Shown: piece after piece, positions 11,079 through 26,474 of the stretch
Position numbering within the stretch: the first letter of the stretch is position 1
How the letters are laid out: each line of letters begins with the position of its first letter
NCBI RefSeq assembly: GCF_013280595.1
Contig: NZ_JAAATY010000016.1
Coordinates: 1-64,000 of the forward strand
Direction of reading: 5' to 3'
Length of the DNA stretch: 64,000 nt
From: Kibdelosporangium persicum
GTDB lineage: Bacteria; Actinomycetota; Actinomycetes; Mycobacteriales; Pseudonocardiaceae
Position numbers and translations under genes: made by a program
Notes under the pieces: generated by a model
The model's database searches: none
The model's input: only the letters and a program-made list of their open reading frames with translations
What the model was told of the DNA's origin: nothing

Positions 11079-11588
11079 GTGAATACGGGTAAATATGTAG
11101 GCGTGACACGCGTTTTCACCCGGTACACGATGGCATCGCTGCTGGCGACGGCCATCAGCCAGGTGGTTTTGCTCGCGCTGTACTGGGCGTGGGAAGCCGA
11201 CGCCATGACCGCGAGCACGGTCGCGTTCCTGGTCGGCGCGGTCCCGCACTTCCTGCTGATCCGGCAGTGGGCGTGGGGCAACAGGGGCCGTGCGGGCAGG
11301 CGGGCCGAGATCGTCGCCTACGTCGTGGTGACGGCCGCGGGCGGCGCGCTGTCCATCGGGATCACGACGGCGGTGGACTGGCTGCTCGCCCCGCTGATCG
11401 ACGACCGCGGCTGGCACGCGTTCGGTCTGGTGATCGCCTACCTGGCCAGTGGCGCGCCGGTCTTCCTGCTCAAGTTCTTCGCACTGGACCGGGTGTTCCG
11501 GCGGAACGTCAGCAATACTCCCAGCGCGCCCACCGACAGCCAGGACAGCGAGACCGCGATCAGCGCGCTCCAGCCCAACGCCGCGTAG
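11079..11588 (+). CDS. GtrA-like four-helix membrane protein
   Basis: 169 residues with four membrane helices (for example LLATAISQVVLLALYWAW and LVIAYLASGAPVFLLKFFAL) in the GtrA/DPMS pattern (FTRYTMASLL near the start, RQWAWG in the middle). The family is thought to help move lipid-linked sugars across the membrane. GTG at 11079 is preferred for its GAGG site 9 bases upstream; GTG at 11103 is the alternative. Lies 11 bp after glgA on the same strand. Its last 151 bp overlap the convergent MFS gene. Confidence 0.82.
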   Translation: MNTGKYVGVTRVFTRYTMASLLATAISQVVLLALYWAWEADAMTASTVAFLVGAVPHFLLIRQWAWGNRGRAGRRAEIVAYVVVTAAGGALSIGITTAVDWLLAPLIDDRGWHAFGLVIAYLASGAPVFLLKFFALDRVFRRNVSNTPSAPTDSQDSETAISALQPNAA

Positions 11589-12619
11589 ACCATCGTCCCG
11601 GCGGTGCCGCCGATGCACGCCCCGGCGTAGTACGCGCCGGTGTAGAGCCCGGACGCCGGGCCCTTGCTCGGCGCGACGGTGTTCACCCACGCGCCCGCGG
11701 CCGCGTGCGCCGCGAACCAGCCCGCCGTGAGCAGCACGAACCCGATGGCGATGGGCACGATGTGCGTGGGAATCGTGAGGATCACGCCGACGGCCGTGAC
11801 GCCGAGCATTCCAAAGAGGACCGTCCGGCGGTTCGGGTGGCGGCCGGTCGTGGCCGAGGCGAAGCCGCCGACCGCGTACGCGACGAAGACCAGCGACGCG
11901 ACCTGCGGACTGAGCTCCAGCGGTGGCGAGGCGAGCCGGAACCCGACCGAGTTGTACAGCGCCACGAACGAGCCCATGCCCAGGAAAGCGACGGCGTAGA
12001 GGGCCCACAACAGCGGCCGGGTGACCGCGTCCTTCAGGCCGCCTGTGGTCCTTGTCACGGCTTCGGTTCGCTTGGGCAACGCCCAGATGAGCACGACGGT
12101 GGCCGCCGCGGCGCAGACGGCCACGAGTCCGGTGCCCTCGCGGTACGTGCCGACCTGGCCGGCGATCAGCCGGCCCACCATGCCGCCGAACGAGTTGCCC
12201 GCGACCAGCATGCCGATGGCCTTCAACCTGCCCTGTTCGGCCAGGTACGCCATGGCGACGGCCGGAAAGCCCGCGATGGCAACGCCTTGCACCGCTCGCA
12301 ACGCGACAAGCAAGGGAAAGTCACCGACGTACGGCAGGCACAGGCCGATCACGGCGGCGACGATCACCGAGGACAGGATCAGCGGGCGCCGGCCGACCAC
12401 TTCGGACAGTAGGGAAAGCGGGATCACCGCGACGGCCAACGCGCCGGTGGCGATCCCGATCACCAGCGAGGCCTGCCCCGGCGTGACCTGGAACTCGTGC
12501 GCGAGGTGCGGCAGCACCGGCTGCGGGGCGTAGAGCAACGCGAAACTCGCGAGCCCGCCCGCCGCGATACCGATGGTCAGCCTGTCCACGCGTTGTGACG
12601 TTAGGCAGCCCCGATCCAT
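11438..12619 (-). CDS. MFS transporter (YnfM/aromatic-drug efflux type)
   Basis: 393 residues with 12 predicted membrane helices; the loop 2-3 motif is LLSEVVGRRPLIL, the usual GxxxDR/KxGRR-like signature. It is divergent from and overlaps at the start with a LysR regulator, a common arrangement where the regulator controls the exporter. The start may be GTG at 12589 (VDRLTIGIAAGG) rather than ATG at 12619. The C-terminal part, including helix 12, is encoded antisense to the end of the GtrA-like gene. Confidence 0.88.
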   Translation of the reverse strand: MDRGCLTSQRVDRLTIGIAAGGLASFALLYAPQPVLPHLAHEFQVTPGQASLVIGIATGALAVAVIPLSLLSEVVGRRPLILSSVIVAAVIGLCLPYVGDFPLLVALRAVQGVAIAGFPAVAMAYLAEQGRLKAIGMLVAGNSFGGMVGRLIAGQVGTYREGTGLVAVCAAAATVVLIWALPKRTEAVTRTTGGLKDAVTRPLLWALYAVAFLGMGSFVALYNSVGFRLASPPLELSPQVASLVFVAYAVGGFASATTGRHPNRRTVLFGMLGVTAVGVILTIPTHIVPIAIGFVLLTAGWFAAHAAAGAWVNTVAPSKGPASGLYTGAYYAGACIGGTAGTMVYAALGWSALIAVSLSWLSVGALGVLLTFRRNTRSSAKNLSRKTGAPLAR

Positions 12620-17438: not shown

Positions 17439-18081
17439 ACGTAGCGAGTCTACGGGTTCGAAGTCACACCGCCCAGCATTTTGTCGCAGTTTCAGGGAGA
17501 TCCCTGATCGATACGTAGCCTGCCAACCCATTGACCTGACGCCCTTGGGACGGTCGCGGTTCGCCGCCTCGTGGCGGTCGGCCAGATCGACACGGGCATC
17601 GCGCCCGCTTCGCACATCGCGTCCACCGTTGTTCTTCCCGGTCCGGCCATCACCGATTCGGCACTGATCGCCGGGTGGCCAAACGCGGTCCGGCGCCGCC
17701 GAACGAACCGGTGAATACCGGGGCAGGCATGGATTTCCCCCGGATTCTCCGGCCGGCGCCGGTTATTTCGCATTGACGGGTTATGACCACAGCGCCGGAG
17801 TTCCGCTCCGGCCGACCGCCGCCTGAACGTGCCCGCCACGAACCGAACACCTACCACGACTCGCCGGCCGCCGAAAGAATGCTCCGCGCGGTGGCGTTTT
17901 CTCGCCAGCCATGCCTCTGACCAGCGACAATACAAGTGACGTGGATCACAGTCACACTTGTTTCCTTGCTTGAATGAACATCCGTCAGTTGAGTGGTGAC
18001 GGGAACGCACCGCATCCGGGGAATCACCGACAGTTCCGTGCACTGTGGCCTCGCCATGGGCTCACACGGCCGAGGGGGACG
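17439..18081. other. 643-bp non-coding region at the left border of the biosynthetic operon
   Basis: No gene with credible codon use or similarity on either strand. It holds the PadR promoter at its left side and the promoter of the biosynthetic operon at its right side, including a Crp-like palindrome at 17935-17950. It is the presumed left junction of the inserted cluster. Confidence 0.6.
17935..17950. promoter_or_regulatory. Crp-like operator candidate
   Basis: AGTGACGTGGATCACA fits the Crp/FNR-family pattern TGTGA-N6-TCACA with one mismatch, and the GTGA/TCAC cores are perfect. It lies 132 bp upstream of the first start codon of the operon. Cyclic-AMP control is an inference. Confidence 0.4.
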
Positions 18082-19386
18082 ATGCGCACGACGCCAACGG
18101 CAACCGTCCTGCCTGCCGGGTTCCGGTGGTTCTGGGGCAGTCAGACGATGAGCTTCGTCGGCGACCGGCTGACCGGCTTCGCCGTGCCGAGTGCCGCGAT
18201 CCTCGTGCTGAACGCGTCCAGCGCCCAGGTGGGACTCGTCTCGGCGGCCGGTTGGCTGGCGTATCCGGCGTTCGGCATGGTCGCCGGCGCGCTGTTGGCC
18301 GGGCGCAGACGCAGGCACGTGATGATCACCGGCGAACTGGTGCGGTTCGTGGCGTTCCTCAGCATCCCGCTGGCCGCACTGGCCGGTTGGCTGAGCGTCA
18401 CGCAGATGGTCGTGGTCGTCGCACTGGCCGGAGTCGCGACCGTCTTCGTGGACATCGCCAGTCAGTCCTATCTGCCCACTCTGGTCGCGCCAGGACAACT
18501 GTTCGCGGCCAACTCCCGGTTGCAGGGCTCGGACAGCCTCTCCAAGCTGATCGGTCCGGCGCTGGCCGGCGCGGTGATGAACCTGCTCGGCGGGATCACC
18601 GCGATCGCCGTGAACGCGTTGCCGTTCCTGTTCTCCGCCTTCGGCCGGACCCGGGTCGGAGTCGTCGAGGACCTGCCGCCACGGCTGGAATCACCTCCGT
18701 CGATCGCGGCCAGAATCCGCGTGGGCCTGGCCTTTGTCTGGAGCCGGCCGCCGTTGCGGCAGGTGGTCTGCGGTACGGCGGTGCGTGGCTTCGGGACCGG
18801 CATCGTCGACGCGGTTCTGCTGCTTTTCGCGTACCGGGCGCTGGGTCTGTCGAGTTTGGGCGGCGGTCTGCTGCTCGCGGCGGGCGCGGTCGGCGCGTTG
18901 CTCGGTGCCTTGCTGACCCAACGGATCGCCGGCCGGATCGGCGTCCGGGCGGCACTGCTGGCCAGCGCGTTCGAAGGTCTGCTGTGGCTTGCCGTGCCGG
19001 TCACGTTGTTCGCCGCACCAGTGGTGTTCCTGGTGGCCATCCGCGTCTGCTCGGCCTTCTGGCTGCCGGTCTGGAACGTGCTGACGACCAGCATCCGGCA
19101 GTCGCTGACACCACCGGGCGAACAGTCAGGCGTGCACGCGACCGCCCGGACGCTGGCGTCGTCGACGATCCCGCTCGGCTCGCTCGTCGCCGGTTTCGCC
19201 GCGGGAGCACTGGGGTCCTGGTTCGGCACCGCGACAGGTCTGGTGGTGGTGCTCGCCGTGGGCGGTGTCTGCACCGCGGCGAGTGTCCTGCTGGTGCGCG
19301 ACGTACCTGAACTGGCCACAACGCAAGGAGGAGGATCGAATGCACCCGACCACCACACGGACGTTGAACGCCAAGGAGTTCGCTGA
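18082..19386 (+). CDS. MFS exporter of the biosynthetic cluster
   Basis: 434 residues. ATG at 18082 is chosen for the GAGGGGG ribosome site 4 bases upstream; the frame is open further upstream but without coding character. Twelve membrane helices of the MFS_3/macrolide-efflux type (FRWFWGSQTMSFVGDRLTGFAV at the start). As first gene of the operon and 47 bp overlapping the radical SAM gene, it is probably the product exporter and a self-protection factor. Confidence 0.85.
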   Translation: MRTTPTATVLPAGFRWFWGSQTMSFVGDRLTGFAVPSAAILVLNASSAQVGLVSAAGWLAYPAFGMVAGALLAGRRRRHVMITGELVRFVAFLSIPLAALAGWLSVTQMVVVVALAGVATVFVDIASQSYLPTLVAPGQLFAANSRLQGSDSLSKLIGPALAGAVMNLLGGITAIAVNALPFLFSAFGRTRVGVVEDLPPRLESPPSIAARIRVGLAFVWSRPPLRQVVCGTAVRGFGTGIVDAVLLLFAYRALGLSSLGGGLLLAAGAVGALLGALLTQRIAGRIGVRAALLASAFEGLLWLAVPVTLFAAPVVFLVAIRVCSAFWLPVWNVLTTSIRQSLTPPGEQSGVHATARTLASSTIPLGSLVAGFAAGALGSWFGTATGLVVVLAVGGVCTAASVLLVRDVPELATTQGGGSNAPDHHTDVERQGVR

Positions 19387-20515
19387 CATCAAGCACACCG
19401 TGGCGATCCGGTCACGGGCCCGCAGGAACCTGTTGGCGGACCCCGGGTACGCCGCGCCACTGCCACAGGAAGTCAGCCTGCAACTGACGTACAAGTGCAA
19501 TCTCCGGTGCACGCACTGCTACCAGTGGAACGAGCAGGGCTTCTTCCGCGACTTCAGCATCGAGCGGCAACGCACCGAACTGGACGTCGAGATCGTCGAG
19601 CAGATCCTGCGCACGACGGCACCGGTACGGTCGAAGACCTTCCTCTGGGGCGGCGAACCGTTGATGCACACCAGGTTCGACGAAGTCGCCCGGTTGCTCG
19701 AAAAATATCCGCGCACGGTCAACATGTGCACGAACGGCCTGCTGTTCAAGCGCAAGCTGGACGACCTGCTGCGGATCGGCGAGAACCTCAACCTGCTGGT
19801 CAGCCTGGACGGGCTCGGCGAGGACCACGAGGCCCTGCGCGGCAAGGGCACGTTCCGGCGCACCATGGAGAACATCCGGCTGATGCTGGACCTGAAGGCC
19901 AAGGGCGAGTTCGACGGCGAGGTCTCGTTGTCGTGCATGGTCTCGCACGTGACCGTGTCCAAGATGTACGAGTTCATGGAATGGGCCGAGGAACTCGGCG
20001 TCAACACGGTCTACTTCCAGTTCCCGTGGTTCATCAGCCCGGAAGTCGCGCAGGCGATGGACAAGGTCTACGAGGAGTCGTTCGCCTGGCTGCACCCCGA
20101 CACCAAGACCAAGCAACCGACCTGGCACTCGTACACCTATCAGCTGCCGGAGGAGCAGATCCCGGTGCTGCGGGAGTCCATGGCACGACTGGCGAGCAGG
20201 CCGTGGCGGGTCCGCGTGCGCTACCAGCCTCAGCTGGAGGCCGACGAGGTCGAGGACTTCATCCGCGGCACGTCCCGGCCGGCACAGCACCGCAACAAGT
20301 GCCTCGCGGTGTCCAACCGGATGGAGGTGCACGCGGACGGCGCCGTGAGCTCGTGCAAGTTCTTCCCGGAGTTCGTCGTCGGCAACCTGTACGACACCCC
20401 GGTCGCGGACCTGTGGCAGGGCCCCGACTTCCGCGAGATCCGCAGGATCCTCTCGGCCAACGGCATGATGCCGGTCTGCTCGAAGTGCATCCTGCTCTAC
20501 CTGAACGGAGTGTGA
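19340..20515 (+). CDS. Radical SAM enzyme with short SPASM/twitch-like C-terminal domain
   Basis: 391 residues, ATG at 19340 after AAGGAGGAGG. The SAM-binding iron-sulphur motif is CNLRCTHC (Cys53, 57, 60), followed by the GGEP motif at about 104-107 (LWGGEPLMH). The C-terminal part has only four cysteines (321, 339 and CSKC at 380/383) in a layout GAVSSCKFF, VVGNLYD, typical of the SPASM/twitch extension; this fits one auxiliary 4Fe-4S cluster rather than two. SPASM enzymes modify peptides, sugars or carrier-bound units. No precursor peptide is seen nearby, and a carrier protein gene follows after 5 bp, so a carrier-bound or small-molecule substrate is inferred. Confidence 0.88.
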   Translation: MHPTTTRTLNAKEFADIKHTVAIRSRARRNLLADPGYAAPLPQEVSLQLTYKCNLRCTHCYQWNEQGFFRDFSIERQRTELDVEIVEQILRTTAPVRSKTFLWGGEPLMHTRFDEVARLLEKYPRTVNMCTNGLLFKRKLDDLLRIGENLNLLVSLDGLGEDHEALRGKGTFRRTMENIRLMLDLKAKGEFDGEVSLSCMVSHVTVSKMYEFMEWAEELGVNTVYFQFPWFISPEVAQAMDKVYEESFAWLHPDTKTKQPTWHSYTYQLPEEQIPVLRESMARLASRPWRVRVRYQPQLEADEVEDFIRGTSRPAQHRNKCLAVSNRMEVHADGAVSSCKFFPEFVVGNLYDTPVADLWQGPDFREIRRILSANGMMPVCSKCILLYLNGV

Positions 20516-20520
20516 AAGCC

Positions 20521-20781
20521 ATGTCCGACACCGAGTCCACCATCAAGACCGTGCTCGCGGGCGTGCTGGCGTCCGGCATCACGCCCGCCGAGATCCGCTC
20601 GGACGCGGACCTGGTCGAGGAGTACGGGCTCGACTCGTTGCAGACGATCTCGTTCCTGCTGGGCATCGAGGACGCGTTCGACATCGAACTGGACTACGAG
20701 ACGCTGGAACTCGACCACCTGCGGTCGGTCGGCCAGTTCGCCGCGTTCATCGGCTCGATGAACCGTGTGGCGGCCGGATGA
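20521..20781 (+). CDS. Acyl/peptidyl carrier protein
   Basis: 86 residues. The phosphopantetheine site is Ser39 in YGLDSLQTISF (DSL motif), followed by LGIEDAFDIELDYETLELDHLRSV, the normal helix 2-3 of type II carrier proteins. GGAG lies 10 bases before the ATG. The stop overlaps the ATG of the ATP-grasp gene (ATGA). It is a stand-alone carrier, as in butirosin-type pathways where an amino acid is loaded by an ATP-grasp ligase (BtrI/BtrJ). The bound unit here is not known. Confidence 0.92.
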   Translation: MSDTESTIKTVLAGVLASGITPAEIRSDADLVEEYGLDSLQTISFLLGIEDAFDIELDYETLELDHLRSVGQFAAFIGSMNRVAAG

Positions 20782-21986
20782 GTTCAGCCAGGCTGGGCAC
20801 GTTCGACGCGGAGAAATGGTGGCGTCCCGCCGATCTCGCCACGCTTCCCGCCATCAGCCGTGCCGGTTCCGACGACGCCGTCGCCACGATGGACGAACTC
20901 CTCGCGGGGTTCTGCTCGCCGGACGACCGGCTGATCACCCGGAGGCCCATGGCAGGCGCGGTCCGGGACGGACTGGCGGCCGCCGGGATCACGTTCGAGC
21001 ACGTCGCCGTCGACGGTCCGCACGAGCCTTTCGAACGGAACGTCTCCCGGGACTTGGTCACTGGCTACGACGTCGAGCCGTATGCGGTTCTCCCGGCGAC
21101 CGCACACCTGTCGGATTCGTTGCCTGACACCGCTGTCGTGGCCCAGGTGAACTCGAAGACCTGGTCGAACGCACTGGCTGCCGACCTCGATCTGCCCGGC
21201 ACGGGGACGGTTGTCCGGTCTGTCGCCGAGCTGTCCGAGGTCGTCTCGCGTCACAGATCGGCCGTCGTCAAGGACCCGTACGGGGTTTCCGGTCGGGCCG
21301 CCCTGGTCGTGGAATCGCCGGGCGTGCTGCGGGCGATCGAGCGGACCCTGACCAGGCAGGGCAAGCGGATCGAGTTGGTGGTCCAGGAGAAGTACGACGT
21401 GCGGCGGGATTTCTCCGCGCACGTCCGGATCTCGCCGGACGGCACGTGGCACCACCGCGGCATCCAGGTGATGACCAATCGGGGCTTGCGGCACATGGGT
21501 TCGTCACCGGCCACATCGGACTTCGTCGAGTTCCTGGCGGACAGGGGTTACCACGACGTCGTCGCCTCGGTCGCGGAGGCGTTGGCCCAGGCGGGATACC
21601 ACGGCCCGGCCGGTGTCGATTCCATGATGCTGCGGGACGGCACGCTCGTGCCGCTGCTGGAGATCAACGCCCGACATTCCTTGGGGTTGCTCTCGCTGGT
21701 GCTGAACGAACGCGCCGCCACACACGGCCTGGCCGCGCATTTCACGCAGCTGGAGCTGAACGTCCCGGCTGGTGGCGGCATCGCGGACCTGTGCGGGGCG
21801 CTGACGCGTTACACCGGCGGGGAACGTGAAGGTGTGCTTGTCCTCAACGGCAGCACCTTGACGGCACCAGGCGGGCGAGTCTACTTCGCCTTGATTTCGC
21901 AGCATCCTGATGCCTTACGGCAGCACTTGCTGGACGCCGTCGCGGCTGCCGGGATGTCGGTCAGAGGAGTCGCCCATGCGGCTTGA
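20778..21986 (+). CDS. ATP-grasp ligase, probable loader of the carrier protein
   Basis: 402 residues. ATP-grasp features: a Lys in AVVKDPYGVSGRA (about 170), the basic loop RDFSAHVRISPDG, and the Mg-binding EINAR at 295-299 (LLEINARHSLG). The arrangement directly coupled to a carrier protein recalls BtrJ, which joins glutamate to the carrier BtrI. Predicted job: ATP-dependent acylation of the carrier with an amino or carboxylic acid. A single TTA leucine codon (21915-21917, residue 380) makes translation a candidate for bldA control. Confidence 0.85.
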   Translation: MSSARLGTFDAEKWWRPADLATLPAISRAGSDDAVATMDELLAGFCSPDDRLITRRPMAGAVRDGLAAAGITFEHVAVDGPHEPFERNVSRDLVTGYDVEPYAVLPATAHLSDSLPDTAVVAQVNSKTWSNALAADLDLPGTGTVVRSVAELSEVVSRHRSAVVKDPYGVSGRAALVVESPGVLRAIERTLTRQGKRIELVVQEKYDVRRDFSAHVRISPDGTWHHRGIQVMTNRGLRHMGSSPATSDFVEFLADRGYHDVVASVAEALAQAGYHGPAGVDSMMLRDGTLVPLLEINARHSLGLLSLVLNERAATHGLAAHFTQLELNVPAGGGIADLCGALTRYTGGEREGVLVLNGSTLTAPGGRVYFALISQHPDALRQHLLDAVAAAGMSVRGVAHAA

Positions 21987-22926
21987 CATCGGCCTGATCG
22001 GGGCGACGAAGATCGCCGAGCGCGCGATACTCGCGCCCGCGAGCCGCCGGGACGACGTCCATGTCCGCGCGGTGGCGGCAAGCGATGTCGTTCGTGCCCG
22101 TGAATTCGCTGCCAGGAACGGCATCCCTCGCGTACACGACGACTACGAATCGTTGTTGGGTGATCCGGATGTCACAGTGGTGTACGTGTCGCTCCACAAC
22201 TCCGCCCACCACGAGTGGGCCGTCCGTGCCGCAGCACGGGGAAAGCACGTCATCGTCGAGAAGCCACTGTGCCTGACGGCCGAGCAGTACGCGGAGATCA
22301 GCAGCACCGCACGGGCCAACGGCGTGCAGGTCGCCGAGGCGATCCCGACGGCCGGTCACCCGTGGCAGGCGGCGGTCCGGCAGATGATCGGCACCGGCGA
22401 GTTCGGTCCGCTGCGCCGGATCAACACCCGGATCCAGTTCCTGACGCCGGCCGAAGGCAGCTACCGCACCCGTCCGGAACTGGGCGGCGGGATCTTCTTC
22501 GACTCGGCGAGCTACTGGCTTCAGGCCGTGCAGTCGACCGTCGGCCTGGCCGGTGCCGCGGGCGACGGCGAGTCCTCATTCGACGGTCCACACGGCACTG
22601 ACACGTCGTTCCTGGCCACGTTGCGGTGGGACGACGGCAAGGAGGCCACTTTGGAGTGTTTCGTCGGTGCCAGACACGTCGCCGAGGTGGAGTTCTTCTT
22701 CGACCACGCGTCCGTGCGGCTGCGTAACCTGCTCCGGCCGATCGTGGCGCCGTTGCCGTTGAACCTGGTGATCAAGGGCTCGAAGACGGAAGTCCGTGCC
22801 TTCGGACCGGTTTCCTACTACGACGCGCAACTGGACCGGTTGTTCACCGCCGACGACGAGCCCGGGCAGCGAATCGCGTTGATGGCCGCGATCCACGCGG
22901 CCGCTCGGGGAGCTCTGGTCCGATGA
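21976..22926 (+). CDS. Gfo/Idh/MocA-family oxidoreductase
   Basis: 316 residues, ATG at 21976 with GAGGAG 6 bases upstream, overlapping the ATP-grasp stop by 11 bp. Rossmann start IGLIGATKIAERA and the family motif EKP (residues 95-97, VEKPLCLT) for NAD(P) and catalysis; the C-terminal half is the alpha/beta sheet domain. Members act on sugars, inositols, or reduce imines and ketones, and some make amino sugars. The substrate here is unknown. Coupled to the next gene by ATGA. Confidence 0.88.
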   Translation: MRLDIGLIGATKIAERAILAPASRRDDVHVRAVAASDVVRAREFAARNGIPRVHDDYESLLGDPDVTVVYVSLHNSAHHEWAVRAAARGKHVIVEKPLCLTAEQYAEISSTARANGVQVAEAIPTAGHPWQAAVRQMIGTGEFGPLRRINTRIQFLTPAEGSYRTRPELGGGIFFDSASYWLQAVQSTVGLAGAAGDGESSFDGPHGTDTSFLATLRWDDGKEATLECFVGARHVAEVEFFFDHASVRLRNLLRPIVAPLPLNLVIKGSKTEVRAFGPVSYYDAQLDRLFTADDEPGQRIALMAAIHAAARGALVR

Positions 22927-24080
22927 TCAAACCGACCGCGATCTGGCAACGGTTCGCGTACACCTTGGACGCCGCACGGCCCGGTTTCGCGCTCGGGCCG
23001 TGGTTCACCATGAACGCCGTCGTGGACATCCGCGGCCCGCTGGACGTCCGGCGGCTTGAGCAGGCGGTGCGGGACCTGGTCGCACGGCACGACCTGCTAC
23101 GCACCCGGGTCGAGGACGGCATGCAGGTCATCCGTCCGCACGTCTCGGTTGACCTGGAAACCTTCGACGACACCGAGTTGCTGCACGTCCCCGTCGAATC
23201 GTCGCGGCTGAGCCCGCTACGGGTGCGGCTCAAGCGTGTCGCCGCCGACCAGCACATGCTGTGCCTGCACATCCATCACATGATGGCCGACCCGGTGACG
23301 TTGTGGGTGTTGCTCGACGAGCTTGCCGCGTTGTACCGGGGCCCGTTGCCCGCTCCCCCGGCCCAGTTCTGGCAGTACGCCGAGGACCAGGCACGTCTGG
23401 TGGCCGACGGCCGGCAGGCAGCGGAGGCGTGGTGGGGACGGTTCACCGGCCCGTTCGCCGCACCCTCCACCACACCGGCCGGGGACTTCGCCTTCCGGCA
23501 GCGGATTCTCGACGCCGGCGAAGCGACCGAAGTGGAGCGGTTCTCCCGCAGGCACCGCGGAACCATGTTCGTCTCACTGCTCGCCGGGTTCACGTCCGCG
23601 ATGCTGCCGTATCTCGGACCTGGTGAGAGCGTCATGGTCAACACGCTGTTCAGCCGCCGGAACCGCACGGAATGGCGCAGGCTGCCGGGACCGTGCACAG
23701 TTCCCGCCTACATCCCATTGCCACGACCGCCCGAATCGCTGACCGGTGAGTACGTCGCCGCGGTCCGTGACGTGGTCCTCGGTGCCCAGCAACACATCCT
23801 GGTCGACGCACTGGGCCCGCCGAGCCCGTTCATCGAGTACGTCCCCGACGCCCGCCCGCAGGCGCTGCGGTTCGGCGAAGCGACCGGCGCCGTGGTCGAC
23901 GCCGCCGGACCCAAGGACACCGGGCAGGCGGGCGACTTGGGCATCCGGGCCCGGCGCACGGATTCCGGCGAACTCTTCGCCCACCTGAGCGGGGACGGTG
24001 TCGGCTGGTCCAAGAAACGGGTGCTGGCCGTGTGCGACGCGTTGCCCTGGCGGGTTTCCCTAGTTTCGGAGGTTTCGTGA
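22923..24080 (+). CDS. Stand-alone condensation-domain protein (NRPS C-domain/PapA-like)
   Basis: 385 residues, shorter than the usual 430-450. It has the core fold landmarks: LEQAVRDLVARHDLLRTRV near residue 45 and the active-site motif HHMMADP at 118-124. The canonical HHxxxDG keeps both His and the Asp, but Gly is replaced by Pro. It probably transfers or releases the carrier-bound unit onto an acceptor amine or alcohol. No adenylation domain is present in the cluster, so loading must come from the ATP-grasp enzyme. GTGA overlap with the next gene. Confidence 0.85.
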   Translation: MIKPTAIWQRFAYTLDAARPGFALGPWFTMNAVVDIRGPLDVRRLEQAVRDLVARHDLLRTRVEDGMQVIRPHVSVDLETFDDTELLHVPVESSRLSPLRVRLKRVAADQHMLCLHIHHMMADPVTLWVLLDELAALYRGPLPAPPAQFWQYAEDQARLVADGRQAAEAWWGRFTGPFAAPSTTPAGDFAFRQRILDAGEATEVERFSRRHRGTMFVSLLAGFTSAMLPYLGPGESVMVNTLFSRRNRTEWRRLPGPCTVPAYIPLPRPPESLTGEYVAAVRDVVLGAQQHILVDALGPPSPFIEYVPDARPQALRFGEATGAVVDAAGPKDTGQAGDLGIRARRTDSGELFAHLSGDGVGWSKKRVLAVCDALPWRVSLVSEVS

Positions 24081-24982
24081 CCAAGCGGGTGTTGTCGTCC
24101 GACGAGCTGGACAACGTGCTGAAGACGTGTGGCGTCGATCCTGAGCAGGTCCGGATCCGAGAGCAGTTGGCCGAAGGCACGTACAACACGGCGTACCGCA
24201 TCCGTACGGCCGACGCTGGGTACATCCTCAAGGTCGCGCCCGATCCGGCTTCGCCTTCGTTGACCTACGAGCGTGGCCTGATGGGCACCGAGGCGATGTT
24301 CTACCGCGAGGCTGCTGGGTTGCCCGTGCCCGAACTGATCCACGCGGAGCAGGACTTCCTGTTGATGACCGAGATCCCCGGCAACCCGTGGTATCCGCGC
24401 AAGCCTGCCGACGACAAGAAGGCGAAGCTGCGCGGGCAGCTCGGCGGGATCGTCGCCGGGCTGCACCGGATCACCGGCACCGGCTTCGGCTATCCGCAGA
24501 TGGGGCTCCAGTCGTCCTGGCGGGACGCGTTCCGCGCGATGGTCATGGCCGTGCTCGACGATGCCGCGCGGTACTCGGTCGAACTGCCCGTTCCGGCCGC
24601 CAGGATCGTGGCCGCGCTGGACTCCGAGTACTTCGACGACGTCACGCAGCCGGTGCTGGTGCACTTCGACCTCTGGGACGGCAACATCCTGATCGACGAG
24701 GACCGGATCACCGGCCTGATCGACGGCGAGCGCGCGTTCTGGGGCGACCCGGTCGCCGAGTTCGTGTCGCTGGCGCTGTTCGGGGACATCCGGCAGGACA
24801 AGGCGTTCCTCGCCGGGTACGGGCCGCTGCGGTTCACCGAATCGGTGGCGTTCCGGCTGGCGTTCGCCAAGGTGTACCTGTACCTGATCATGCTCGTCGA
24901 GTCCGTGCCGCGGGGGAACTCCGACGAGACCATGCACCGGCTGATCACCCGTGGCCTGACCGACGCGGCGGCGCGGCTGTGA
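24077..24982 (+). CDS. APH-type phosphotransferase (small-molecule kinase)
   Basis: 301 residues, GTG at 24077 with GGAGG 4 bases upstream. The Brenner motif HFDLWDGN (H196, D198, N203) and LIDGER (D216) mark the aminoglycoside phosphotransferase/choline-kinase fold; the Lys of the N-lobe is in YILKVAPD. It phosphorylates a hydroxyl of a small molecule. In a biosynthetic operon it is either a tailoring step or self-resistance by inactivating the product inside the cell. Confidence 0.87.
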   Translation: MTKRVLSSDELDNVLKTCGVDPEQVRIREQLAEGTYNTAYRIRTADAGYILKVAPDPASPSLTYERGLMGTEAMFYREAAGLPVPELIHAEQDFLLMTEIPGNPWYPRKPADDKKAKLRGQLGGIVAGLHRITGTGFGYPQMGLQSSWRDAFRAMVMAVLDDAARYSVELPVPAARIVAALDSEYFDDVTQPVLVHFDLWDGNILIDEDRITGLIDGERAFWGDPVAEFVSLALFGDIRQDKAFLAGYGPLRFTESVAFRLAFAKVYLYLIMLVESVPRGNSDETMHRLITRGLTDAAARL

Positions 24983-26010
24983 TCGAGATCCTGACTTCCG
25001 GTGTGGCCCTTGGCGTGCACGTACCCGGTCTGGTGCTGGCCGACCGGCTGCGCGAACGCGGGGCCGAGGTCACCGTGTCGGTGCTGGAACGCATGCTGCC
25101 CGCGGAGACCCTGGCGACCACGACGAAGATGAAGTGGGCGTTCCACCGCGACTTCCGGGTGGCGCTGGCCGGGCAGCGGGTGGCCAGGGACGCCTCGGTC
25201 GCCGTCCCGCCGGACGCCCAGGCGGCGATGCTGGAGTCGTGGCGTGCCCGGGATGTGCGCCGGTTCGTGGTGTTCTCCGGGTTCTGGTTGCCGATCCTGG
25301 AACAGTACGGCGCCGTCGACGTCGACGTGTGCCACGTGGATTCCGTTGTCTCACCTTCGTTCCAGAAGGTTCGTACCACGTTGGCGCCACGGGAGATCTG
25401 GCTCGCCAACGCCGATCGCGGCACACTGCCGTTCAGCATCCCGGTGACACGCGAGGCGCCGATCCCGTGGGAATCACGCGACAGACGGCTTCTCGTGCAC
25501 GGCGGCGGCTGGGGCATGGGCACGTACCGGGAACGCGCGTCCGAGTTGCGGGCTCATGGTTTTTGCCTGGACGTCGTCGCCTACGAACAGCGTGATGTGT
25601 CGTCCGATCCCGGCATCCGGCACTTCATGATCGACCCGGAGTGGCACCCGTGGCTGGACGACGGCTACCCGCCGTTCGGCCAGATCGTCGACGGCACGGC
25701 GACGTTCACCCGCGGCCAGGGACATCACGGCTCGTTCTCGTTGACACGTTCCGTGGTCGCGACCGTGAGCAAGCCCGGCGGCGGCACCCTGCTGGACTCG
25801 TTGTGGTCGGCGACCCCGGCCGTGCTGCTCGAACCGTTCGGCGCCCACGAGAAACGCAACGCCGAGCTGTGGGAACGGCTGGGGTTCGGTATCTCGTTCG
25901 ACAAATGGCGTGCGTCAGGCTTCGATATGGGCATGCTGGAGAAGCTGCACGTCACGCTCGACCAGGTCCGTGAGTCTATTGTGGACTACTCGGCCGTGCT
26001 GGCCGGATGA
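24979..26010 (+). CDS. GT-B glycosyltransferase, UGT/MurG-like
   Basis: 343 residues, GTG at 24979 inside the stop of the kinase gene (GTGA). The N-terminus (VIEILTSGVALGVHVPGLVLA) fits an acceptor-binding Rossmann domain, and the C-terminal part has the nucleotide-sugar site of UDP-type enzymes: SKPGGGTLLDSLWSATPAV followed by LEPFGAHEKRNAELWERLG. It probably adds a sugar to the cluster product or an intermediate. No sugar-nucleotide genes are in the operon, so a housekeeping donor is likely. Confidence 0.8.
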   Translation: MIEILTSGVALGVHVPGLVLADRLRERGAEVTVSVLERMLPAETLATTTKMKWAFHRDFRVALAGQRVARDASVAVPPDAQAAMLESWRARDVRRFVVFSGFWLPILEQYGAVDVDVCHVDSVVSPSFQKVRTTLAPREIWLANADRGTLPFSIPVTREAPIPWESRDRRLLVHGGGWGMGTYRERASELRAHGFCLDVVAYEQRDVSSDPGIRHFMIDPEWHPWLDDGYPPFGQIVDGTATFTRGQGHHGSFSLTRSVVATVSKPGGGTLLDSLWSATPAVLLEPFGAHEKRNAELWERLGFGISFDKWRASGFDMGMLEKLHVTLDQVRESIVDYSAVLAG

Positions 26011-26474
26011 ACGAGGTCCGGCAGGCGTCGCCGGACGACTGGGCGGCGTTCCGTGACATCCGGCTGGCCGCGTTGGCGGACGCGCCGGACGCGTTCGGGT
26101 CGACGTTGCGGGACGAGGTCGACAGCACCGAAGCGGACTGGCGCCGGAGGCTGACCACCTCGGTGGTCTTCCTGGGCAGCCGGAACGGCGAGGTGCAGGC
26201 GATCGCCTCGGCATTCCCCCTTGAGGGCGACGAGGTCGAACTGATCAGGATCTGGACGGACCCGCGTGCCCGAGGCACAGGCCTGGCCGCCGAGACCGTC
26301 GGCGCGGTCCTGGAGTGGGCGCAGGGGAAGACCGTCACGCTGTGGGTCGGCGAGAAGAACCCGGCGGCTGAACGCTTCTACGCCAAGCTCGGGTTCGTCC
26401 GGACAGGCAGGCGCGGCCCGCTGCCACGAGACGAGTCGATCATGGAAGTCGAGATGGTGCTACGCGCGGACTGA
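26007..26474 (+). CDS. GNAT-family N-acetyltransferase, last gene of the biosynthetic operon
   Basis: 155 residues with the acetyl-CoA motif IWTDPRARGTGLAAETVGAV and the C-terminal NPAAERFYAKLGFVRTGRR. ATGA overlap with the glycosyltransferase. Either acetylates an amine of the product or gives self-resistance. Its end overlaps the convergent gpgS gene by 15 bp, which sets the right border of the cluster. Confidence 0.88.
   Translation: MNEVRQASPDDWAAFRDIRLAALADAPDAFGSTLRDEVDSTEADWRRRLTTSVVFLGSRNGEVQAIASAFPLEGDEVELIRIWTDPRARGTGLAAETVGAVLEWAQGKTVTLWVGEKNPAAERFYAKLGFVRTGRRGPLPRDESIMEVEMVLRAD

Follow-up and report, generated by a model that had tools for sequence, protein, structure and literature searches.

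An operon of eight genes in the actinomycete Kibdelosporangium persicum (genome of 10.35 Mb) appears to be a specialised-metabolite operon whose chemistry is carried out on one free-standing carrier protein. We refer to the analysed stretch of 64,000 nucleotides, the first part of contig NZ_JAAATY010000016.1 (our contig C16), as the window; nine open reading frames (ORFs) on its + strand, the eight genes and one probable neighbour, fill positions 18082–26474. Related cassettes are present in 30 loci, and every one of them has genes for a radical S-adenosylmethionine (SAM) enzyme, an acyl/peptidyl carrier protein (ACP) and a stand-alone condensation (C) domain. On the sequence evidence we hold with moderate confidence that an ATP-grasp ligase loads the ACP, the radical SAM enzyme edits the bound group, an acceptor is glycosylated, and the C domain transfers the acyl group. 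The nine genes are as follows.

18082..19386, +, major facilitator superfamily (MFS) transporter (Pfam MFS_1, 1.4e-19); probable exporter, optional part
19340..20515, +, radical SAM enzyme with a C-terminal SPASM/twitch-like cluster domain (Pfam Radical_SAM, 7.4e-19; SPASM, 2.9e-12)
20521..20781, +, free-standing ACP, Ser39 (Pfam PP-binding, 2.6e-9)
20778..21986, +, ATP-grasp ligase, putative ACP loader (homology to an ACP-linked ATP-grasp family; match to structure 8ynd)
21976..22926, +, Gfo/Idh/MocA oxidoreductase of sugar-ketoreductase type (Pfam GFO_IDH_MocA, 1e-22; KijD10 match)
22923..24080, +, stand-alone C domain, putative release/transfer enzyme (Pfam Condensation, 2.7e-23)
24077..24982, +, APH-fold small-molecule kinase (Pfam APH, 9e-27)
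24979..26010, +, GT-B glycosyltransferase (GT; two-domain GT-B fold of the structure model)
26007..26474, +, GNAT acetyltransferase (Pfam Acetyltransf_1), probably a resident neighbour outside the pathway

Gene layout and conservation of the cassette

A preliminary description of this DNA, made from its letters alone, had reported nine overlapping genes in one direction with a 5-bp gap before the carrier gene, and the junctions are as it claimed: in order, an overlap of 47 bp, the gap of 5 bp, and overlaps of 4, 11, 4, 4, 4 and 4 bp. Its family assignments were also borne out, by Pfam for seven of the nine proteins (MFS_1, Radical_SAM with SPASM, PP-binding, GFO_IDH_MocA, Condensation, APH and Acetyltransf_1) and by profile, context and structure evidence for the ATP-grasp and GT proteins, neither of which has a Pfam match at E 0.01. 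At the same threshold no adenylation (AMP-binding) or ketosynthase family was found among the nine proteins, in agreement with the earlier statement that this is not an ordinary nonribosomal peptide synthetase (NRPS), polyketide synthase or ribosomally synthesised and post-translationally modified peptide cluster. The nine frames are not due to chance, because alignments of the MFS protein begin from residue 1 in all five further loci of the genus that carry the operon, the nine genes give dN/dS values of 0.12–0.49 and no internal stops when compared with one relative (L024), and the set recurs in the 30 loci.

The ordered set was searched for in actinobacterial genomes with ATP-grasp or radical SAM queries, so that the counts of these two genes depend on the search; 33 loci including the window were gathered, of which 30 were left after removal of three duplicates. 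The gene order radical SAM-ACP-ATP-grasp is retained in 29/29 loci holding all three. While radical SAM, ACP and C-domain genes occur in 30/30 loci, ATP-grasp and GT genes are found in 29 each (both missing from L066) and the kinase gene in 28 (missing from L027 and L066). Some relatives' own proteins were among the queries for gene presence: C domains in the case of L025, L033 and L078, and for L078 also its MFS and kinase proteins. Independent support for these comes from Pfam for the L025 C domain, from 32% identity to the window's C domain for that of L033, and for L078 from the grouping of its C domain in the C-domain cluster and from 39% (kinase) and 25% (MFS) identity to the window's proteins. 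The C-domain gene of L030 (genome G007) was tallied as present; an insertion at about 11295–12439, encoding what by eye is a transposase-like protein, splits it, and the L030 operon may be inactive owing to this interruption.

The cassette is rare: at E 1e-60 it was found in 1 of 396 phylum-wide genomes, the window's own, and a scan of its own family at E 1e-40 gave 23 of 297 genomes including the window's, the count for family f18 being 2 of 297. A contig scan limited to close relatives gave seven loci. Holders outside the genus include Streptomyces lycii, Micromonospora sp. KC723, Umezawaea endophytica, Saccharothrix yanglingensis and two large linear Streptomyces plasmids, and the single annotated relative that was inspected has its ATP-grasp and GT proteins labelled as hypothetical. 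The records of L023 and L024 bear the titles Rhodococcus rhodnii and Actinosynnema sp.; the loci are collinear with that of Kibdelosporangium aridum and the genomes scored as the window's genus, and these titles are probably wrong. On a Streptomyces linear plasmid (NZ_CP134205.1, 338000–364000; L081) the cassette is adjoined by a second unusual gene set, consisting of an ACP, an aminotransferase, two Gfo/Idh proteins, a TauD-type dioxygenase, an argininosuccinate-synthase-domain protein, an AMP-binding protein, a carbamoyltransferase, a C domain, an LLM oxidoreductase and a fructosamine-kinase-family protein.

Proposed chemistry and its rivals

The scheme would begin with the ATP-grasp ligase linking a carboxylic acid, which may be an amino acid, to the ACP as a thioester; this reaction and those below, with their order, substrates and product, are predicted from the genes and their conserved residues, the catalytic roles of which, in all six families concerned (ACP, ATP-grasp, Gfo/Idh, C domain, kinase and radical SAM), we take from family knowledge. 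Ser39 of the ACP is invariant in 30/30 loci, as are K127, K165, E295, N297 and R299 of the ATP-grasp protein in 29/29. The window protein is homologous to an ACP-linked ATP-grasp family over its full length (382 columns, E 4.5e-40), and the pairing of the two genes, already pointed out in the preliminary description, holds widely: they adjoin in all 29 loci having the ATP-grasp gene and stand near each other in 7 of 8 distantly related clusters (L082–L089). These eight, in all of which the ATP-grasp gene is accompanied by a pyridoxal phosphate (PLP)-dependent decarboxylase gene, form a second conserved family in Pseudonocardiaceae, often with further acyl-handling genes (by eye), and look like an aminoacyl-ACP starter-unit system. 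Only one TTA codon, within the ATP-grasp gene (20778–21986), occurs across the nine genes; in streptomycetes such codons can put expression under bldA dependence.

The radical SAM enzyme would then alter the ACP-bound group by dehydrogenation, epimerisation or formation of a new bond. Its cysteines C53, C57 and C60 and the C-terminal C321, C339, C380 and C383 are kept in 30/30 loci, giving a CxxxCxxC motif plus four further cysteines near the C-terminus as in BtrN-type twitch enzymes, whose twitch cluster is defined by four cysteines. The window protein scores 97 bits, under the cut-off of 170, with the NCBIfam twitch model NF033640, and its C-terminal region resembles BtrN at only 4e-4. Among the 25 loci with all seven genes, the median pairwise identity is 76% for the radical SAM enzyme, 57% for GT, 53% for Gfo/Idh, 51% for ACP, 46% for the kinase and 44% for ATP-grasp, and is lowest, at 29%, for the C domain. 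A distance correlation of 0.94 between radical SAM and ACP over these loci was considered as a sign of their co-evolution and was dropped as evidence after a recheck within the main group of loci.

On the sugar side, GT would put a sugar on the acceptor, and the nucleotide sugar is probably edited by the Gfo/Idh ketoreductase. The latter matches KijD10 (3rbv) at 5.2e-35, and K96 and Y180, present in 26/26 loci, fall on the KijD10 catalytic pair; they align with the positions at which the chains 3rcb and 3rc7, taken to be active-site mutants of KijD10, differ from 3rbv. Up to about 3 kb upstream of the cassette, L025, L079 and L080 have the gene for glucose-1-phosphate thymidylyltransferase (rfbA), and L025 and L079 also that for dTDP-glucose dehydratase (rfbB). 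Together with the KijD10-like Gfo/Idh protein, these neighbours suggest that a dTDP-sugar is used, at least in strains having them.

The C domain would hand the ACP-bound acyl group on to the acceptor, at an amine or alcohol, and the MFS protein would export the product; the kinase may phosphorylate an intermediate or inactivate the product in the cell. The profile of the kinase, whose H196, D198, N203 and D216 are kept in 28/28 loci, finds hygromycin-B 7''-O-kinase at 5.8e-16. C-domain residues H119 and D123 are present in 30/30 loci, in a motif reading HHxxxDP in 23 loci, QHxxxDP in 3 and [SD]HxxxDG in 4. The usual motif is HHxxxDG; 26 of the 30 have proline instead, and the four glycine-bearing loci (L025, L078, L079 and L080) belong to Streptomyces or family f18.

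Four loci bear on the acceptor and on the partnership of radical SAM and ACP. L032, L060, L066 and L071 have in addition a luciferase-fold monooxygenase and an LPG_synthase_TM protein, and the last three also a prenyl diphosphate synthase, a P450 (that of L066 just 27–30% identical to those of L060 and L071) and a squalene-hopene-cyclase-family protein taken to be a class II diterpene cyclase; L060 and L071 have a terpene synthase as well. These families were assigned by Pfam on the L060 and L032 copies and by identity in the other loci. L066 shares its genome (G574) with an ordinary cassette, L065, to which its radical SAM enzyme and ACP are 96% and 83% identical, as compared with 67% and 33% to those of L060; its C domain is 58% identical to those of L060 and L071 and 30% to that of L065, and the radical SAM tree groups L066 with L065 (support 99/97). 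From these identities and the tree, we infer that a diterpene cluster received the radical SAM and ACP genes in a joint exchange and retained its own C domain, and this exchange fits a radical SAM enzyme acting on the ACP and a C domain matched to the acceptor. L066 has no ATP-grasp, GT, kinase or Gfo/Idh gene, which L065 would have to supply if L066 is active. More tentatively, the cassettes might form a class that works without adenylation and ketosynthase domains, in which one constant radical SAM-edited and possibly glycosylated acyl donor is joined by divergent C domains to different acceptors including diterpenoids, the donor machinery being inherited, and once exchanged, as a module; we regard this generalisation as possible but doubtful.

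Several observations weigh against the scheme of acyl transfer to a glycosylated acceptor. Next to the operon of the window no gene for an acceptor could be recognised, and the Gfo/Idh gene is present in 26/30 loci, being missing from L066, L070, L073 and L074. When the GT model was compared via VIA-align with the families of its list, UDP- and dTDP-sugar enzymes matched alike; no dTDP-sugar genes were found in the window at E 1e-6, and the best RfbB homologue of its genome (64%) lies on another contig. Radical SAM and ACP were exchanged in a single case, in a cluster, L066, that may be decaying. In the main group of 19 loci the radical SAM-ACP distance correlation (0.85) is not special, that of radical SAM and GT being 0.91.

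The main rival is that the molecule is built on the ACP in the manner of mitomycin: ATP-grasp would load the acid, GT would glycosylate it on the ACP, the radical SAM, Gfo/Idh and kinase enzymes would modify the sugar while it is tethered, and release of the glyco-acyl unit onto a small acceptor would fall to the C domain. Such building on the ACP would explain the missing acceptor gene, and no non-cassette gene is common to the varied neighbourhoods listed; the distances of GT, ATP-grasp, kinase and Gfo/Idh correlate at 0.93–0.96 in the main group, and the functional roles equal those of MitE, MmcB, MitB, MitF and MitD as described in parts of two sources (PMC8621148, PMC9570651). However, the likeness to MitB, MitD and MitF was judged by role, an obvious separate acceptor is seen in the diterpene loci (3/30), and the four loci lacking Gfo/Idh tell against this scheme too, which we consider rather unlikely.

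Acyl transfer from a loaded ACP also has to be weighed against an ATP-grasp enzyme of PGM1 type that joins free small molecules by a peptide or amide bond, another enzyme loading the ACP. The best solved-structure match of the ATP-grasp protein is indeed a peptide ligase (8ynd, 1.1e-9), and weak PGM1-type domains are seen in relatives (PreATP-grasp in 3/11 members and PGM1_C in 1/11, with none below E 0.1 in the window member), but the constant company of the ACP gene and the lack of an adenylating protein among the nine make this improbable. We give still less weight to an aminoglycoside-like antibiotic operon, a closer analogue of butirosin in which the kinase would confer self-resistance and the ACP arm would add an acyl side chain. 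The hygromycin-B kinase match, the ACP/ATP-grasp pairing and the slight resemblance to BtrN would suit it, but tblastn found no BtrK-type decarboxylase in the 30 loci and the window, the kinase is missing from the otherwise complete L027, and no aminocyclitol gene was recognised among the nine proteins; it is very unlikely.

Boundaries of the operon

Two genomes of the genus are without the operon (G005 and G006; no radical SAM match). In G006 (L100) the flanks of the window are collinear up to 17526 and again from 26470, and the 2.4 kb in between (L100, 12444–14812) has pieces resembling, by eye, ABC exporter genes of K. aridum at the same place; in G005 (L101) the left flank stops at window position 17459, beyond which lie a GNAT homologue (53%) and a dihydropteroate synthase gene. 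On the basis of these collinear flanks and this GNAT homologue, the operon behaves as an island of about 18.0–26.0 kb amid housekeeping genes, and the GNAT gene looks resident. In the preliminary description GNAT would acetylate the product, a role that we have set aside, since the gene occurs in only 5/30 loci, all of one genus, and the homologue occupies the same site in an operon-free strain. Its 4-bp overlap with GT and its presence in 5/6 operon-bearing loci of the genus speak for membership, and the G006 site has no GNAT gene, the best G006 match (43%) being located elsewhere; GNAT is probably a resident neighbour and not a pathway member.

As to the proposed export by the MFS protein, the family assignment stood, and a general role was weakened by the finding that the gene is optional (18/30 loci, with the L078 copy of only 25% identity among these). 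In K. aridum (L022, 1863–7176) and L023 the MFS gene is separated from the left flank by four genes which the window does not have and which look, by eye, like a cytochrome bd oxidase and its ABC exporter.

Comparison with known systems

The preliminary description knew of no described pathway with this gene set, and we likewise found no such pathway or cluster in the open-access literature, the only literature covered, which is weak evidence of absence. All the enzyme classes have precedents, and for the carrier logic there are two, butirosin and mitomycin. That 30 related operons keep their catalytic residues unchanged points to a genuine family of products, for which no described member was found, and adenylation and ketosynthase domains, the usual marks by which such clusters are recognised, are absent from the cassette. 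If the radical SAM enzyme does act on a single ACP-bound residue, a handful of small proteins should suffice for a direct test.

In butirosin biosynthesis, BtrI, BtrJ and BtrH serve a carrier-bound acid, and BtrI, BtrJ and BtrK are arranged as ACP, ATP-grasp enzyme and PLP decarboxylase. The cassette also has a free ACP beside an ATP-grasp ligase, likened to BtrJ by described role, and its ACP-bound acyl group would likewise be transferred to an acceptor of sugar type. It differs in having a C domain instead of BtrH and, as a set, radical SAM, GT, Gfo/Idh and kinase enzymes; tblastn searches of the 30 loci and the window with the decarboxylases of two relatives gave no BtrK-type match at E 1e-3. 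Part of one source describes the roles of BtrK and BtrO and places BtrO in the luciferase-fold monooxygenase superfamily, a protein of which fold is present in 4/30 cassette loci (PMC2922099).

The clusters L082–L089 share the full-length homologous ATP-grasp protein and, in 7/8, the ACP, but have the decarboxylase in 8/8 and no match to the window radical SAM, GT and kinase proteins at E 1e-4; a Gfo/Idh-like protein is seen by eye in L083, and a C-domain match in L085. KijD10-type sugar ketoreductases share the catalytic lysine and tyrosine with the window Gfo/Idh protein, whose role is predicted. With NRPSs the cassette shares a C domain having the catalytic histidine and aspartate, but the adenylation domain is absent from the nine proteins.

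In mitomycin biosynthesis, according to parts of two sources, MitB glycosylates ACP-bound 3-amino-5-hydroxybenzoic acid (AHBA) and MitF and MitD act on the tethered sugar, and the pathway shares with the cassette a single ACP, a GT, a radical SAM enzyme and a reductase, as well as an acid activated onto the ACP, a step that is predicted for the cassette (PMC8621148, PMC9570651). When compared by role, ATP-grasp replaces the acyl ligase MitE in the cassette, Gfo/Idh replaces the FabG-like MitF, and the kinase and C domain are extra; at E 0.01 the nine proteins of the window gave no AMP-binding match, as would be expected of a MitE-type acyl-AMP/CoA ligase. The cassette unites a carrier-bound acid, as in butirosin, with a sugar and radical SAM set like that of mitomycin.

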